Assembly (NCBI RefSeq): GCF_030705605.1
Contig: NZ_JAPCKK010000001.1
Span: forward strand, 310,001-374,000
Source of the DNA: Paenibacillus zeirhizosphaerae
Lineage (GTDB): Bacteria; Bacillota; Bacilli; Paenibacillales; Paenibacillaceae
Direction: 5' to 3'
DNA length: 64,000 bases
Each line of letters starts with the position of its first letter. Position 1 is the first letter of the stretch. The translations under genes and the position numbers were made by a program. Below the pieces are notes generated by a model. It made no database searches, was not told the origin of the DNA, and was given only the letters and a program-made list of their open reading frames with translations. Positions 19,175 to 27,345 of the stretch are shown piece after piece.

Positions 19175-21619
19175 ATGAAAGTATCAACCGAATGGCTGTC
19201 TGACTATATATCGCTTGAGCAGGTGACTGCTGAGGAGCTGGCTGAGCGCATTACCCGGGCGGGTATTGAAATCGATGTGGTGGAGAACCGGAACAAGGGT
19301 GTCTCGGGAGTTGTTGTAGGTTACGTTAAAAGCAAGGAGAAGCACCCGGATGCGGATAAGCTGAACGTCTGTGTCGTCGATGTAGGGCAAGGCGAGGATT
19401 TGCAAATCGTATGTGGCGCTAAAAATGTGGATGTGGGCCAGAAGGTGCCGGTAGCGATGATTGGGGCCAAGCTGCCCGGCGATTTCCAAATTAAAAAAGC
19501 CAAGCTGCGCGGCGTCGAGTCCCAGGGCATGATCTGCTCCGCCAAGGAGCTGGGCATGAACGACAAGCTGCTGCCGAAAGAGCAGCAGGAAGGTATCCTT
19601 GTTCTTCCGGCAGACGCCGAGCTGGGCACTCCGATCGAAAAGCTGCTTGGCCTGGACGATAAGGTTCTGGAATTCGACTTGACTCCGAACCGCTCGGACT
19701 GCCTCAGTATGCTGGGAGCTGCTTATGAAGTGAGCGCGATTCTCGGAAGAGACATCAAGGTTCCCGATCCGGAGCAGGACCTGATTGAAACGGCTGAATC
19801 CGCAGCGGGACATCTTTCAGTATCCGTGGCGGCATCCGAGCTGTGCAGCCACTATGCGGCTCGCGTAATCACCGGAGTAACGATCGGAGCCTCCCCGTTG
19901 TGGATGCAAAACCGCTTGATGGCAGCCGGCATCCGCCCGATCAATAACATTGTCGACATCACCAACTACGTGATGCTGGAATACGGACAACCTTTGCATG
20001 CTTTTGATGCGGCCAAGCTGAGCGGACGGATTGACGTGCGTCTGGCGCGTGCAGGCGAAACGCTTGTAACGCTGGACGATCAGGAACGCAAGCTTGAGCC
20101 TCATATGCTGCTGATTACTGACGGAGAGAAACCGTTGGCCTTGGCGGGTGTCATGGGCGGAGCCAACTCGGAGGTTACTGCGGACACGGTCGATATTGTG
20201 CTGGAGTCGGCGAAATTTGACGGCGGAAGCGTGCGTAAGACATCCCGTCAACTAGGGCTGCGTTCCGAAGCAAGCCTCCGTTTTGAAAAAGAAGTTGATC
20301 CGGCTGCAGTCATCCCTGCGCTCAACCGTGCGGCAGCGCTGATCCAGCGCTACGCAGGCGGAGCGGTACAGCAGGGCATTGTCCAGTATAATGAAGCGAA
20401 TATCGCTCCACGGATCATTACCTTGTCGCTGGAGAAGCTGAATCGTTACCTGGGGACTGACCTATCTATGCTGGAAGTGAAGACGATCTTCAGTCGGCTT
20501 CATTTTTCTTGCGGGGACCTTGAGCATGGCCAGCTGGAAGTGGAGGTTCCGACACGGCGCGGTGATATTACGCTGGATGTGGACTTGTTCGAAGAGGTTG
20601 CCCGCCTCTATGGGTACGATAATATTCCGACCACAGCTATCGAGGGCCCTACAACGCCTGGTGCGCTGACTCCTGCACAAGCTCTGCGCCGTTCTCTGCG
20701 CGGCCTGCTTGTTCATGGCGGATGGCAGGAGATCATCAGCTATTCCTTTATTCATCCGGATCGTACGGGACTGTATCCTGCTCTTACAGAAGGCAGTCAC
20801 CCGGTAGCTTTGGCTATGCCAATGAGTGAAGATCGGAGCATGCTGCGTACCAGCATCATTCCCCAACTGCTGGATGCCGCCGTATACAACATGAACCGCA
20901 AGCAGGAAGATCTGGCCCTGTTTGAAATTGGCAGTGTGTTCTTCAGCGGTGAGAAGACGTTGACTAAGCAGCCGCAGGAGATTCTTGTGCTCAGTTTGCT
21001 TCTGACAGGCAAGCGCCGCAGCCAGCAATGGAACATTAAGGCGGAGGCTGTCGATTTCTTTGACATCAAGGGTGCTCTTGAAACGCTGTTGGACTATGTG
21101 GGTCTGGCAGGTAAGGTACGTTATACCGCTGATAGTCCGGCAGGATACCATCCGGGGCGTTCCGCTTCCGTATATCTGGAGATCGAAGGGCGAGCGGAAC
21201 TGATCGGCACGGTGGGCCAGGTTCACCCTGAGCTGCAGCAGCAATACGACCTACAGGACACGTATGTAGCGGAAATTGCTCTAGAGCCGGTAATCCGTCA
21301 CCAAAATGGCGCCATCCGTTATCAGGAGTTGACCCGCTTCCCTTCCGTCGAACGTGATATTGCGGTAGTTGTCAACGAAACGGTGGAAGCAGGCGAGCTG
21401 CTGCGTGTGATTCGCGAAAACGGCGGCGAGCTGCTGACTCAAGCTCGGGTGTTCGATGTCTTCACAGGCAGCAAGCTTGGAGAAGGCAAGAAAAGCATTG
21501 CCATTGCGCTGCTGTACCGTCACCGTGAACGTACATTGACCGATGAAGAAATTAACGGCACGCACAGCCGGATCGTTGAGGCACTGGAACAAACTTTTGG
21601 CGCTGAATTAAGAAAGTAG
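19175..21619 (+). CDS. pheT: Phenylalanine--tRNA ligase beta subunit
   Basis: An 814-residue subunit of normal bacterial length. Order: EMAP-II-like tRNA-binding OB domain (about 40-155, GYVKSKEKHPDADKLNVC), B3/B4 editing region (about 210-400, with the NNIVDITNYVMLEYGQPLHAFD motif), B5 DNA-binding-like domain (about 405-475), a catalytic-like core (about 480-690) and the C-terminal ferredoxin-like anticodon-binding domain (about 720-814, RFPSVERDIAVVV). The B3/B4 domain removes mischarged tyrosine. The start has AAAGGAAG upstream. A terminator follows at 21633. Confidence 0.98.
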   Translation: MKVSTEWLSDYISLEQVTAEELAERITRAGIEIDVVENRNKGVSGVVVGYVKSKEKHPDADKLNVCVVDVGQGEDLQIVCGAKNVDVGQKVPVAMIGAKLPGDFQIKKAKLRGVESQGMICSAKELGMNDKLLPKEQQEGILVLPADAELGTPIEKLLGLDDKVLEFDLTPNRSDCLSMLGAAYEVSAILGRDIKVPDPEQDLIETAESAAGHLSVSVAASELCSHYAARVITGVTIGASPLWMQNRLMAAGIRPINNIVDITNYVMLEYGQPLHAFDAAKLSGRIDVRLARAGETLVTLDDQERKLEPHMLLITDGEKPLALAGVMGGANSEVTADTVDIVLESAKFDGGSVRKTSRQLGLRSEASLRFEKEVDPAAVIPALNRAAALIQRYAGGAVQQGIVQYNEANIAPRIITLSLEKLNRYLGTDLSMLEVKTIFSRLHFSCGDLEHGQLEVEVPTRRGDITLDVDLFEEVARLYGYDNIPTTAIEGPTTPGALTPAQALRRSLRGLLVHGGWQEIISYSFIHPDRTGLYPALTEGSHPVALAMPMSEDRSMLRTSIIPQLLDAAVYNMNRKQEDLALFEIGSVFFSGEKTLTKQPQEILVLSLLLTGKRRSQQWNIKAEAVDFFDIKGALETLLDYVGLAGKVRYTADSPAGYHPGRSASVYLEIEGRAELIGTVGQVHPELQQQYDLQDTYVAEIALEPVIRHQNGAIRYQELTRFPSVERDIAVVVNETVEAGELLRVIRENGGELLTQARVFDVFTGSKLGEGKKSIAIALLYRHRERTLTDEEINGTHSRIVEALEQTFGAELRK

Positions 21620-21679: not shown

Positions 21680-21830
21680 TCTTCGCTAGCGCCGTTCGCT
21701 CGCTTCACTTGATTGATGATGAAATAAGTTGCAAAATAGATAATGAACAGAATTCCCAGTCCGAACGGGAGTTGAAAACGAACAACAGACATCCCAGAAT
21801 CAACACACAGAACTGGAGGAGGGCATAATT

Positions 21831-23753
21831 GTGACTACACCGGATCGCACACGCGTTACCGTTGAAATATACGGAAATTCCTATAAGCTTGTTGGAAGCA
21901 GTACAGAATATATGAAGCAGGTTGCAAGCTATGTAAATGATAGAATGCATACGATAGCGCAGGCTCACGCTCATCTGGATATTCCGCGCATTGCGGTACT
22001 CGCTGCAGTTCACATGGCGGAAGAAGCAGTTAAATCCCAGGAAATCGAGAGGAAAATGAACCGAATCGTCGAGGAACGTTCTGAATTGCGGGAAGACCTG
22101 GCAAAGCTGCAAACCCTCCTCGGGGAGCAGCAGCAGAAGAATGCCGTACTGCTGGAAGCAGGCGACCGTATCGTACAGGAGAAGGAACAGGCGTTGGCGA
22201 GGCTGGCGGAAGCCGAACAGAATGCGGCACGGGAAAAGGCTGAACTGAAGAGCAGGCTGGAGCAACAGATGAAGAAAGAGGCCGAGCTGCTTAAAGAGAA
22301 GGAGCGGACACAGACAGCCGCCAGACAGGTCGAGACCAAGCTGGCCGCTGCAGAGAAGGAATATAAATCAAGACTGCAATCGGAGAAGGAGCAGCTGCAA
22401 TTCAGCCTGAACGAAGAACAGCAAAAGGCAAGAGCAGCCTGGCAATCCGAGCTGGCGGCCCTTCGCAAGCGCTTGGAGGATGAGAAAGGACAGATCCTCA
22501 CTTCATTAAAAGAAGAACAGGCCTTGCGCCAACAGGCTGAGACCCTTCAAGAAGAGATTCGGCAAGAGTACGAGGAAGAGCTCAAGCAGTTCCGAAACCG
22601 TTTGGACGAGCTTGAGTTAAGTGAACAGCTACTCACCGAGGAACTGCAAGGTACCTCAGAACAGATGAAGCAAGCCGAAGCTGCCCGTCAGGAGCTTGAA
22701 GACCGCTTGAAGGAGGCAGCGGCCGCAGAGGAAAAGTCTGCTAGCAGACTCCAATCTCTTCAAGGTGAGATAAATGAGAAGAATACTGAGCTGAAACGGA
22801 TGCAGCAGGCTTCCTCCAAAGCGGAGGAAGAGCAGAGAAGGATGCAGAAGCTGCTTGAACAGGCACATGTCTCGGTACGCAAACTGCAGGCTGAAATGGC
22901 TGATCTATCCAAGAAAGAGCAGACGGCTCGCGAGCTGGCCGGCAAGCATGTGGCAGAGCTTAAGCAGCGCCAGCAGGAGTTGATCGTGAAGACGGATCGG
23001 ATCGGACAGCTTGAGCGGACCATCGAGCAGTTGGAGGAAGACATGGTCGCCGCGCTCAAGCAAGCGGAGGAATTGCAAGGCCGGAACAGCAGCCTGCAGC
23101 GCCAGCTTGCGGAGCAACAGACGGAGATGGACGAGCAGCGTAACGCCCTTGAGCTAGCGCGTGCTGAGGCGCAACAGGCTGCGGAGCTTGCCGCACAGAG
23201 TGATCATCGATACGAGCTTCTGCGCGAGGAGGCCGAAAATCTGCAACAGCAGTCGGAACAGCTTCAGGCTGAACTCGAACGGCTGAATAGACAGGCTGCA
23301 GAGCAGCGGACTGAGTTCGAACAGGCGGAGGAAGAAGCAATAGAGTGGCAGGTCAAGTACGAGGAGAAGCTCGCCGAACTGGAGCATATCGCTGCGGAGG
23401 AGGCACACCGTCAGGAAGAACTGGCGGCATGGGAGCAGCAGATTGCATCCGCATCCGAGGTCCGCGAGCGGCTCCAGCAGGAGGTCGCTGATGTGACCCG
23501 GGAGCAGCAGGATACATTGGCCGAACTGCAGACCGTGACGCAAGCCCGCGAGGAGTTACAGACTCAACTTACAGAAATTGGCGATCGTTATGAGTTGGCT
23601 GCTCATCAACTAAGATTGCTGCAGGTGGAACGCGATATGGAGCGTGAGAAAACGGAGAATCTGGCTGAGAAGCTTGAGCAGCTTCAGGATGAGTATTCAA
23701 AGCTTCAAACGGAGTATAACGAGTGGATCGAGCTCATTGAGCAGGACCAATAG
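21831..23753 (+). CDS. zapA: ZapA-domain cell division protein with giant coiled coil
   Basis: A 640-residue protein. Residues 1-90 are a clear ZapA domain: TRVTVEIYGNSYKLVGSS, a YMKQVASYVNDRM helix and IAVLAAVHMAEEAV. ZapA bundles FtsZ at the division ring. Residues about 90-640 are an almost unbroken Glu/Gln/Lys/Leu/Ala coiled coil without Pro or Gly-rich breaks. B. subtilis ZapA is only about 85 residues. GTG 21831 has GGAGGAGGG about 8 bases upstream. The order pheT-zapA-mutS2 matches the usual Bacilli neighbourhood, so this is the standard zapA locus with a large extension. The reading frame and codon use are continuous, so this does not look like an assembly fusion. Confidence 0.88.
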   Translation: MTTPDRTRVTVEIYGNSYKLVGSSTEYMKQVASYVNDRMHTIAQAHAHLDIPRIAVLAAVHMAEEAVKSQEIERKMNRIVEERSELREDLAKLQTLLGEQQQKNAVLLEAGDRIVQEKEQALARLAEAEQNAAREKAELKSRLEQQMKKEAELLKEKERTQTAARQVETKLAAAEKEYKSRLQSEKEQLQFSLNEEQQKARAAWQSELAALRKRLEDEKGQILTSLKEEQALRQQAETLQEEIRQEYEEELKQFRNRLDELELSEQLLTEELQGTSEQMKQAEAARQELEDRLKEAAAAEEKSASRLQSLQGEINEKNTELKRMQQASSKAEEEQRRMQKLLEQAHVSVRKLQAEMADLSKKEQTARELAGKHVAELKQRQQELIVKTDRIGQLERTIEQLEEDMVAALKQAEELQGRNSSLQRQLAEQQTEMDEQRNALELARAEAQQAAELAAQSDHRYELLREEAENLQQQSEQLQAELERLNRQAAEQRTEFEQAEEEAIEWQVKYEEKLAELEHIAAEEAHRQEELAAWEQQIASASEVRERLQQEVADVTREQQDTLAELQTVTQAREELQTQLTEIGDRYELAAHQLRLLQVERDMEREKTENLAEKLEQLQDEYSKLQTEYNEWIELIEQDQ

Positions 23754-23810: not shown

Positions 23811-24212
23811 CTATTCAACAATGAGTTTGGCGGTCATGGTGTGATGACCGGTGCCACAGAACACGGAACAGTCAATCGCGTATTCACCTTTTTGCTCGGG
23901 CGTGATTACCTGAGACGTATTTCTGCTATCCAGTCGAACGTTAAGATTCTGGATGATGACACCATGTGTGCCCTCTGTGTTCTCAAATGAGATTTTTACG
24001 GGGACGCCCTGTTTCACACGGTATTCCTGCTGGTCAAATGCAAAATTGCTGGCCTTGATCACGACTTCTTCACTGGCAGTGGCTGCTTCGTCTGTCGTTT
24101 GCTGTCCGGATGAAGCCGGAGAAGCCCCGCTTCCGCAGGCAGACAGGAACAGAAGCAGCAGGCCTGCTGCTACCAGTAAGGATGCATTCCTTTTAACGAG
24201 CTTGATTCCCAC
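23811..24212 (-). CDS. CuA-type cupredoxin lipoprotein (cytochrome oxidase subunit II-like)
   Basis: A 133-residue lipoprotein. I chose GTG at 24212 because GGAGGAG precedes it by 6 bases and it gives a proper signal: KLVKRN, a hydrophobic core and the lipobox L-S-A-C at residue 26. The mature part is one cupredoxin domain with the full CuA ligand pattern: a histidine in TEGTHGVII and C-S-V-F-C-G-T-G-H-H-T-M (C-x3-C-x3-H-x2-M). There are no transmembrane helices beyond the signal, so it is not a true oxidase subunit II. It may carry electrons or copper to an oxidase at the membrane face; no other oxidase gene is nearby. Confidence 0.85.
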   Translation of the reverse strand: MGIKLVKRNASLLVAAGLLLLFLSACGSGASPASSGQQTTDEAATASEEVVIKASNFAFDQQEYRVKQGVPVKISFENTEGTHGVIIQNLNVRLDSRNTSQVITPEQKGEYAIDCSVFCGTGHHTMTAKLIVE

Positions 24213-24311
24213 ATGCTCTCCTCCAATTCGTTGGCTTATTCTATTTGCCATCATACCGCAAGTTGTCCTGGGAAGAGTGTGAAGAAATTTCGAAAAAGAT
24301 ATTCAAGCTGT

Positions 24312-24377: not shown

Positions 24378-24743
24378 CTAAGCACGGTCGTTGCTGCCCC
24401 GTCCGGCTTCAAAAGGCGTGGAAACCGGAATAAACAGGTCGATAAGTCCGATAACAAGTGCAGCAAGCAGAGCACCCAGCACAGAAACCTCCACACCGCC
24501 AACGATAAATTGTGCGATGTAGATGACTAGCGCGCTGACTAAAAAGCCTACTATGCCGCGCCCGAACGGATTGACTCTGCGGCCGAACATGGCTTCGATG
24601 ATAAAGCCGATGACGGCAATCACGATGGCGAGAATCAGAGCGCTCCAAAAACCGCCCACGCTGAATCCAGGTACAATCCACCCGACAACGAGAATCACGA
24701 GTGCTGCAACTACAAAACGTACAATAGTGCCTAGAATTTTCAT
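24378..24743 (-). CDS. YvlD-like four-helix membrane protein (phage holin superfamily IV)
   Basis: A 121-residue protein with four hydrophobic helices: about 5-25, 31-50, 58-80 and 84-106. The GWIVPGFSVGGFWSALILAIVIAVIGF and GRGIVGFLVSALVIYIAQFIVGG segments are typical of the YvlD/holin-superfamily-IV group. In B. subtilis, yvlD sits in a SigW-controlled envelope-stress operon; no other yvl gene is next to it here. The ribosome site AGGAGG precedes ATG 24743. The likely place is the cell membrane; the mechanism is unknown. Confidence 0.85.
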   Translation of the reverse strand: MKILGTIVRFVVAALVILVVGWIVPGFSVGGFWSALILAIVIAVIGFIIEAMFGRRVNPFGRGIVGFLVSALVIYIAQFIVGGVEVSVLGALLAALVIGLIDLFIPVSTPFEAGRGSNDRA

Positions 24744-24981: not shown

Positions 24982-27345
24982 TTGGACGCAAAAATTTTGC
25001 AAACACTGGAATATGGTAAAATCTTAAGCTCATTGTCTAATTACACGCAAACGCCGTTGGGTAAACATGCAGCCATGCAGCTTCGCCCCAGCTCGGATGC
25101 GGCTCATATACAAGCATTACTGAAAGGAACGGATGAGGCTTTCGCTGTAGATCGTCTGAAGGGAACTCCTTCGTTTACCGGAGTGGTTGACATATCGCCT
25201 GCCGTAAAGCGTGCGCGCATCGGCGGCACATTGAATCCGCATGAACTGCTCGGCATTCGGACAACGATTCAGGCAGGACGGCGTATCAAGGTGTACATCG
25301 AGGGCGTGCATGAGGAGCATACCATTGAATCCCTGCTGTTTATCAGTGAACAGCTTTCCGACCAGAAGCTGCTGGAAAATGCGATCAAGGCATGTATCGA
25401 CGATAATGCCGAGGTGCTTGATACGGCAAGCTCGGAGCTGGCCCAAATACGCCGTGAGCTGCGTTCGGGTGAGGTAAGAATCCGTGAAAAGCTGGATTCC
25501 ATGATCCGCTCCTCTACGGTATCCAAGATGCTGCAGGATCAGATCATTACGATTCGCGGTGACCGGTTTGTGATCCCTGTCAAAGCGGAATACCGTTCCT
25601 ACTTCGGCGGCATTGTGCATGACCAGTCCGGCTCGGGCGCTACCCTGTTCATTGAGCCTGAATCGATCGTCACGATGAATAACAAGCTGCGTGAAACGAG
25701 ATTGAAGGAAGAACGGGAGATTGAGGTCATTTTACAAAAGCTGACCGCACAGGTGGGAGAACAGGCCGAATTGCTGCTCTACGATCTCGATCTGCTCGGT
25801 AACCTTGACTTTATATTCGCGAAAGCGCGTCTGGCCCGGGAAATGAAGGCAACGCTTCCGATGATTAACGATCGTGGCTTTGTAAGGCTGAAGAAAGGTC
25901 GCCATCCTCTGATTCCATTGGATAAAGTAGTGCCGATCGATGTTGAGCTGGGCGGCAGCTATTCGTCTATCATCGTGACCGGCCCGAATACCGGGGGAAA
26001 GACGGTAACGCTCAAAACGATTGGTCTGCTCAGTCTGATGGCCATGTCGGGACTGTTTGTTCCTGCTGAGGATGAGAGTGAGCTGTCTGTGTTTGATGCC
26101 ATCTATGCCGACATCGGCGATGAACAGAGCATCGAACAGAGCCTTAGTACATTCTCCAGCCATATGACGAATATTATCGGCATACTGCGGCAGATGACTC
26201 CGAGAAGCCTTGTGCTGTTGGATGAGGTGGGAGCGGGTACCGATCCTGCGGAGGGCTCGGCATTGGCGGTGGCTATATTGGAGCACATTCATGCCAGTGG
26301 CTGCCGCATGGTAGCGACAACGCATTATAGCGAGCTTAAGGCATATGCATATGAACGGGATGGCATTATTAATGCCAGTATGGAGTTTGATGTGGCTACG
26401 CTGAGTCCGACGTACCGCCTGCTCGTTGGTGTGCCTGGCCGAAGCAATGCTTTCGCGATTGCGGAACGGCTTGGTCTGTCCAAGCCAATTCTGGATTATG
26501 CCCGTGGTGAGGTAACAGAGGAGGATCAGCGTGTCGAGCATATGATTGCTTCTCTGGAGGAGAACCGGCTGACCGCTGAGCAGGAGCGCACTGCAGCCGA
26601 ACGGGTGCGCAGGGAGAATGAGGAGCTTCGCAGCCGCTATCAGGAGGAGCTCGACAAGCTTGAAAGACAGCGTGAGCGCATGCTGGAAAAAGCGGAGGAA
26701 GAAGCACGCCAGGTCGTGGAGAAGGCCCGCAGCGAATCGGAACGTATTATTACCGATCTGCGTAAGCTTGCCCAAGAGGAAGGCGCCGCAGTGAAGGAAC
26801 ATCGTTTGATCGCGGCCCGCAAGGAGCTTGATAAGGCGGAGCCGAAGCAGCGCAAAAAATCGTCCGTTCCACGTCAGTCCTCCAGAGCAAGGGCGATTGA
26901 GCCGGGAGATGAGGTTCATGTGCACAGCCTGAGGCAGAAGGGGCATGTTGTGGAGCTGTCCGGCAGCAAGGAGGCCGTCGTGCAGATGGGCATTATGAAA
27001 ATGAAGGTAAGCTTGGATGATCTTGAGCTGCTGGATGCGCCGAAGGCCGCTCAGCCGAAGCAACGCCCGGTTACCGGCGTGAACCGAACTCGCGACGACC
27101 GGGTGCGGAGCGAGCTGGATTTGAGGGGAGCCAATGTGGAGGAAGCGCTGATTGAAGTGGACCGATTCATGGACGAAGCCTTTATGGCTAATCTGGGCCA
27201 GGTCTACATTATTCATGGAAAAGGCACAGGTGTGCTTCGCTCCGGCATTCAGGACTATCTGCGCCGTCACAAGCATGTGAAAAGCTACAGGCTAGGCAAT
27301 TATGGGGAAGGCGGGTCAGGTGTGACTGTCGCCGAGTTAAAATAA
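24982..27345 (+). CDS. mutS2: Endonuclease/ribosome-splitting ATPase MutS2
   Basis: A 787-residue MutS2 of normal length. It has the core and clamp domains (about 1-290), the ATPase domain with Walker A GPNTGGKT (334-341), Walker B VLLDEVGAGTDP and a TTHYSELKAYAY switch, a long charged coiled coil (about 515-630), a KOW-like segment (EPGDEVHVHSLRQKGHVVEL) and a C-terminal Smr domain (about 708-787, LDLRGANVEEAL, IIHGKGTGVLR). MutS2 suppresses recombination and, in B. subtilis, splits collided ribosomes with its Smr domain. It starts at TTG 24982 with GAGAGGAG upstream. It lacks the mismatch-binding domain of MutS1, as expected. Confidence 0.97.
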   Translation: MDAKILQTLEYGKILSSLSNYTQTPLGKHAAMQLRPSSDAAHIQALLKGTDEAFAVDRLKGTPSFTGVVDISPAVKRARIGGTLNPHELLGIRTTIQAGRRIKVYIEGVHEEHTIESLLFISEQLSDQKLLENAIKACIDDNAEVLDTASSELAQIRRELRSGEVRIREKLDSMIRSSTVSKMLQDQIITIRGDRFVIPVKAEYRSYFGGIVHDQSGSGATLFIEPESIVTMNNKLRETRLKEEREIEVILQKLTAQVGEQAELLLYDLDLLGNLDFIFAKARLAREMKATLPMINDRGFVRLKKGRHPLIPLDKVVPIDVELGGSYSSIIVTGPNTGGKTVTLKTIGLLSLMAMSGLFVPAEDESELSVFDAIYADIGDEQSIEQSLSTFSSHMTNIIGILRQMTPRSLVLLDEVGAGTDPAEGSALAVAILEHIHASGCRMVATTHYSELKAYAYERDGIINASMEFDVATLSPTYRLLVGVPGRSNAFAIAERLGLSKPILDYARGEVTEEDQRVEHMIASLEENRLTAEQERTAAERVRRENEELRSRYQEELDKLERQRERMLEKAEEEARQVVEKARSESERIITDLRKLAQEEGAAVKEHRLIAARKELDKAEPKQRKKSSVPRQSSRARAIEPGDEVHVHSLRQKGHVVELSGSKEAVVQMGIMKMKVSLDDLELLDAPKAAQPKQRPVTGVNRTRDDRVRSELDLRGANVEEALIEVDRFMDEAFMANLGQVYIIHGKGTGVLRSGIQDYLRRHKHVKSYRLGNYGEGGSGVTVAELK

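Follow-up and report, generated by a model that had tools for sequence, protein, structure and literature searches.

In the order Paenibacillales, the division protein ZapA occurs in a long form in which a predicted coiled-coil rod of up to many hundreds of residues lies between the N-terminal head and a short C-terminal tip matching the end of ordinary ZapA, and we propose, at a probability of roughly 45%, that this form would crosslink FtsZ filaments over a long reach. ZapA is small and occurs widely as a conserved component of the Z ring; a short C-terminal helix determines its reach, which is nearly constant among the species examined to date. The ZapA domain and the name ZapA, which the long relatives carry in public records, are already known; among the literature matches listed, in which subscription journals are sparsely covered, we found no publication on long ZapA in Paenibacillus, on the inserted rod or on the conserved tip. 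The protein that we started from is encoded in a window of 64,000 nt, the whole stretch of DNA analysed (positions 310,001 to 374,000 of NZ_JAPCKK010000001.1, assembly GCF_030705605.1, Paenibacillus zeirhizosphaerae), and the family, order, class and phylum of this source genome are Paenibacillaceae, Paenibacillales, Bacilli and Bacillota.

The zapA gene (21831..23753, plus strand) is a single 640-aa frame with a GTG start at 21831 and a stop codon ending at 23753, and a ribosome-binding-like GGAGGAGGG, read from the sequence, stands 7 bases ahead of the start (21815..21823, plus strand). On the same strand, the frame divides into the ZapA head (residues 1-63, 21831..22019), the inserted rod (residues 64-617, 22020..23681) and the C-terminal tip (residues 618-640, LQDEYSKLQTEYNEWIELIEQDQ, 23682..23750). 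Tblastn synteny places a gene that we take to be pheT upstream (19175..21619, plus strand) and what is presumably mutS2 downstream (24982..27345, plus strand), beyond two minus-strand genes at 23811-24254 and 24378-24743. The latter two look cupredoxin-like and phage-holin-4-like by eye, and have tblastn matches in the equivalent place in many relatives. The pheT locus recognized in an initial annotation of this DNA was borne out, as pheT lies upstream and on the same strand at 58 of the 59 loci read by tblastn synteny, and at 51 of 51 within Paenibacillales. The long form occupies this one place in independent genomes, which rules out the misassembled fusion that the same annotation had raised.

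The Pfam ZapA profile (PF05164, cut-off 23.8) matched residues 9-95, extending from the head into the rod, with 42.2 bits for the whole 640-aa protein and 57.6 bits for its first 100 residues alone, and this gene was the sole ZapA match in the source genome assembly (94% complete). At E values up to 0.1, ZapA was the only Pfam match in the protein, with neither EzrA (PF06160) nor ZapB found. The NCBI equivalog for short ZapA, PRK14126, scored 60.5 bits with the whole protein, below its cut-off of 80. In sequence, the head is related to the solved ZapAs 2mmv, 1t3u and 9isj, and the best-scoring named relatives, in a database comparison from which the source genome's own records were possibly excluded, were Paenibacillus proteins such as those of P. 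brasilensis (44% identity) and P. ottowii (41%, both for the best segment), whose matches span residues 1-640. The source genome retains the FtsZ N-terminal tail (MLEFDFEMESLAQ). The FtsZ-contact residues R46, V47, T48 and N60 of Klebsiella ZapA correspond to A47, H48, L49 and H61 in the window protein, in an alignment that is a weak match (E 0.0056); the short Bacilli ZapAs compared are also without R46, V47 and T48, and nearly all of them retain the Asn.

ZapA was present in 293 of 295 Paenibacillaceae genomes, and the 71 complete proteins, from 17 genera, ranged from 267 to 1612 aa with a median of 913. The set read comprised 72 Paenibacillaceae proteins from 17 of the 19 genera (g27 and g31 were left out), and we excluded L068, which is cut by a contig end, and L126, a 101-base piece. 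Ten other families of the order contributed 20 proteins of 123-1663 aa, family f6 alone spanning 138-1663 aa. Elsewhere in Bacilli, 48 ZapAs measured 73-241 aa (41 of them at most 105 aa), and no ZapA frame over the family cut-off exceeded 258 aa in the 139 genomes outside the family of a Bacilli sample, open-frame lengths running from stop to stop and being upper bounds. Phylum-wide, at least five frames above 250 aa lay outside the family among the matches listed; four of the five, with G561 left out, were translated and held ZapAs of 92, 92, 184 and 173 aa, their frames running on upstream of ZapA, and the two longer proteins have a Pro/Gly-rich tail. Long ZapA marks Paenibacillales in the sampled genomes, and its length is very free, varying more than tenfold between species. 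A short ZapA with a separate coil gene, the arrangement that the initial annotation had named as evidence against its reading, was not seen in Paenibacillaceae, where the comparison of zapA lengths showed the same long protein in the relatives, and we reject it for the family.

Several records at the margins of this distribution were noted. ZapAs of family f58 (L212, L213 and L214) carry Pro/Gly/Ala-rich, probably disordered tails and no coil, and a 180-aa ZapA of family f145, outside the order (L216), has a coil-like extension. Records named Neobacillus mesonae MER 107 and Bacillus sp. FJAT-26390 (L261 and L327) match Paenibacillus-type ZapA, and their names may be wrong. The fungal record Hortaea werneckii KC345_g11072 combines a 62% identical ZapA head with PF03147 and PF17759, which we take to be pheT-type domains, and probably reflects Paenibacillaceae DNA contaminating the fungal assembly. 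We also compared ZapA frame length with genome size, finding a rho of 0.83 in genus g28 (35 genomes) and of 0.74 over 16 genera of other families; in 168 Paenibacillaceae genomes, among the matches listed, the within-genus signal was z 3.7 when pooled and z 1.5 without g28. We do not claim that rod length tracks genome size in general; the relation is weak or absent in most genera besides g28.

Several features of its sequence strongly suggest that the rod is a coiled coil. Residues 73-618 consist of heptad repeats free of proline and cysteine, 71 of 91 proteins have proline-free rods, and the hydrophobic periodicity of the roughly 550 rod residues at 3.5 residues stands 20.5 s.d. over shuffles. 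We trained a cyclic model on 11 rods, giving it no labels, and applied it to 6 held-out rods; there the gain per residue was largest at period 7, with 0.111 bits, followed by 0.063 at period 11, and all eight remaining periods (3-6, 8-10 and 12) fell below zero. A Viterbi heptad reading of the window protein needed 4 register shifts in 575 residues, all before about residue 244-245, and then ran unbroken to the end. AlphaFold2 predicted helices at residues 51-197, 214-386 and 421-639 (mean pLDDT 68.9), in a monomer prediction of low confidence (pTM 0.24) that is silent on oligomers. The PF05164 match, the 640-aa frame and the 3.5-residue periodicity together confirm the ZapA domain with a coiled coil of about 550 residues described in the initial annotation, and its estimate of a rod of about 80 nm agrees with simple arithmetic (555 residues x 0.1485 nm, or approximately 82 nm). 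Similarity to SMC/Rad50 coils is weak and confined to the coil region (TIGR02168, 49.1 bits; equivalog cut-off 567 bits). Near the end of the rod, a subterminal motif, HQLRLLQVERD (residues 592-602, 23604..23636, plus strand), has invariant columns Q593, R595, L596, L597, V599 and D602 in an alignment of 7 proteins, and is missing from some genera.

The direction in which the chains pack was read from their charges. In parallel, in-register chains, a charge at heptad position g pairs with the partner's e five residues further. Across 35 proteins, 11 of which had been used in training the heptad model, g-to-e complementarity at spacing five reached a combined z of -10.4, as against -1.4 to +5.5 for the other six position pairs at this spacing; at spacings three and four, charges were complementary at all positions, as in any helix. 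The g-to-e signal favours chains that run parallel and in register, with the heads at one end and the tips at the other, and strongly suggests this packing for the predicted coiled-coil rod.

The C-terminal tip links the long form to ordinary ZapA, in which the terminal helix, for example ADEYFRLRLEYEELIKLLEE, stands directly behind the head. For a profile of this helix we used 40 short ZapAs belonging to other families, leaving out 8 of the 48 outgroup ZapAs (L195 and those longer than 106 aa), and slid the profile along every rod. In 89 of 91 proteins the top window fell within the final 35 residues, where the best ranks in the remaining two were 3/719 and 9/1134; with one protein per genus, the tip came out on top in 31 of 33, against 3.5 expected. 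Among the 89 matches, 79 share the same register, 9 lie one heptad earlier and 1 is without the W. For the window protein, the tip window QDEYSKLQTEYNEWIELIEQ scored 21.6 bits (rank 1/556) versus -3.8 for the helix adjoining the head, and the matching stretch covers about 23 residues. Since the best match lies at the C-terminal end, the rod sits between the two ends of ordinary ZapA, and by this comparison it is apparently an insertion between head and tip rather than a plain extension of the ZapA C-terminus. The heptad repeats of the initial annotation, which had the coil running to residue 640, hold up; the conserved tip had been overlooked. Some relatives also keep an ordinary-like helix beside the head (31.1 bits in L095 and 24.4 in L080), so that the tip may be a duplicate instead of the displaced original, and several (L103, L111, L114 and L098) have a Pro/Gly-containing break ahead of it. 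What is seen in family f29 looks like a similar, smaller insertion event, the 241-aa L115 having its top window, of 156, near the C-terminus and, by eye, an ending similar to that of its 87-aa relatives L168 and L170. Family f35 has a similar look with mixed support, its tip windows ranking 5/132, 1/88 and 1/46, all with scores below 0.

The final turn of the tip, W-I-x-L-I, is hydrophobic at e and g as well as at a and d. Its Trp is present in 90 of 91 proteins, with hydrophobic residues at W+1 (heptad e) in 88 of 90 and at W+3 (heptad g) in 89 of 90; in short ZapAs, the four corresponding places are hydrophobic in 40, 29, 22 and 36 of 40 (29 at W+1 and 22 at W+3), and the W itself is found at the equivalent place in 0 of 40. 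This hydrophobic face exceeds the needs of a two-stranded coil.

Ordinary ZapA, which the initial annotation had taken for an antiparallel dimer, is an antiparallel tetramer whose two heads are each a dimer (PMC12754632, PMC12216130); in these and a third report, C-terminal helices join the dimer heads, each head binds FtsZ, and ZapA function in E. coli requires tetramerization (PMC12754632, PMC12216130, PMC7246612). The B. subtilis type and the solved structures 2mmv, 1t3u/1w2e, 4p1m and 9isj share with long ZapA the head, the pheT locus, the single copy and the C-terminal helix motif, and only in the long form do hundreds of rod residues separate head from motif. Because of the match between the tip and the terminus of ordinary ZapA, we argue first for ZapA-to-ZapA joining. 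The simplest reading would be the dumbbell of ordinary ZapA with a rod spliced into each arm, in which two parallel rod dimers would join tip to tip, as ordinary ZapA does, and two arms of about 82 nm would hold the putative FtsZ-binding heads up to about 160 nm apart. Counted against such a crosslinker are the Klebsiella-type FtsZ contacts missing from the head, together with two features that would fit another partner for the tip, namely the absence of its W from the 40 short ZapAs and the Pro/Gly-containing break ahead of it in several relatives.

The main rival to the crosslinker is a tether, which we consider doubtful: the head would bind FtsZ while the tip, which parallel packing places at the opposite end of the rod, would bind another partner such as the nucleoid, a membrane protein or a cell-wall factor, so that one chain would do the job of E. 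coli ZapA-ZapB-MatP. Parallel rods would hold the tips away from the heads, the tip is conserved as strongly as the head, with its nearly invariant Trp, and streptococcal ZapA offers a precedent in its lineage-specific partner ZapJ (PMC8687745). Set against this are the match of the tip to the terminal helix of the self-associating ordinary ZapA and the absence from the window protein of any membrane segment recognizable by eye. The nucleoid or envelope role suggested in the initial annotation has no direct support, and the E. coli protein beyond ZapB, there called MatB, is MatP. The coiled-coil factor ZapB acts together with ZapA, whereas in long ZapA the coil belongs to ZapA itself; ZapB and ZapJ are separate proteins, ZapB found only in gammaproteobacteria and ZapJ only in streptococci (PMC8687745).

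A further point for the tether is that EzrA, an FtsZ-associated membrane protein of Bacilli that is long and helical like long ZapA, was over the profile cut-off in 0 of 36 same-genus genomes; it was also below cut-off where ZapA is short, in sampled families f16, f17, f23, f27 and f28. Therefore EzrA loss does not predict the rod, and the rod as a substitute for a lost EzrA is unsupported as a rule. EzrA itself differs from long ZapA in its N-terminal membrane segment (PMC8687745) and has triple-helix repeats (PMC4243239). The members of the order over the EzrA cut-off were L061, L062, L063 and L064, of which L061 has an EzrA-like part and no TPM match. Two frames, L217:453-3146 (minus strand; genome G064, in Paenibacillaceae) and L064:541-3201 (plus strand), combine an N-terminal TPM domain with a long stretch resembling EzrA, each scoring above its Pfam cut-off, and possibly represent a type of membrane protein with the TPM domain on the outer side and an EzrA-like part inside. 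No TPM match was found in the source genome.

It is improbable, in our estimate, that the rods form a full-overlap antiparallel bundle, lying side by side with heads at both ends about 80 nm apart and each tip docked by an opposite head. Ordinary ZapA tetramers are antiparallel, and in crystals of the ZapAs from Klebsiella and E. coli the C-terminal tail lies over part of the head site that the FtsZ N-tail takes in the complex (PMC12754632 and PMC12216130, respectively). The g-to-e charge pairing, by contrast, fits parallel in-register chains; rod positions e and g are hydrophobic in only about 12% and 7%, contrary to the need of a four-helix bundle; and an antiparallel charge scan gave no clear register, which is neither proof nor exclusion of antiparallel packing.

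Both ends of the protein are held more tightly than the rod. In 8 species with gapless 674-aa proteins, dN/dS in the head, rod and tip was 0.034, 0.099 and 0.033, respectively (the tip value from 25 of 28 pairs), ratios that are rough because dS differs between the regions (0.26, 0.82 and 1.08), and the information per column over 22 representatives was 2.95, 1.44 and 3.11 bits. Insertions and deletions of 0 or 4 residues modulo 7 keep the phase of a coiled coil or leave a mild stutter. Such lengths account for 17 of the 23 distinct rod indels counted between proteins with 85% identity or more (binomial P 9e-6 if independent, although the large indels in g33 overlap at one spot and are not all independent, and the proteins share ancestry), the remaining six being 9, 12, 15, 22, 44 and 110. 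Judged from these alignments, the rod changes length mostly in steps that a coiled coil tolerates while staying a predicted coil. Large differences also occur between close relatives, with 1305, 1407, 1433 and 1466 aa in ZapAs 87-93% identical; L085, L123, L163 and L164, at this identity, differ by 95, 110 or 154 residues near residue 257, lengths that suggest an 11-residue repeat array of changing copy number. A near-neutral spacer, in which head and tip would matter and the rod would do little and drift in length, might account for such jumps, for the range within family f6 and for a rod dN/dS about three times that of the head, and is nonetheless the least probable reading, given purifying selection on the rod (dN/dS 0.1), a kept register, avoidance of proline and lengths of at least 267 aa in all 17 of the 19 Paenibacillaceae genera that were read.

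For the long-reach crosslinker, we would picture a rod that grows and shrinks through duplication and loss of repeats, coil phase being its main limit. More tentatively, Paenibacillales ZapA may be a strut of evolvable length, whose tip-to-tip dumbbells would space FtsZ filaments by tens to several hundred nm. Natural ZapAs run from 123 to 1663 residues with matching ends, and therefore the relation of crosslinker reach to Z-ring shape is testable by rod swaps. Both ends of a core division protein can stay conserved while its interior varies by hundreds of residues from one relative to another, and, if the proposal is true, a strut of evolvable length would provide a natural length series on Z-ring spacing and width.
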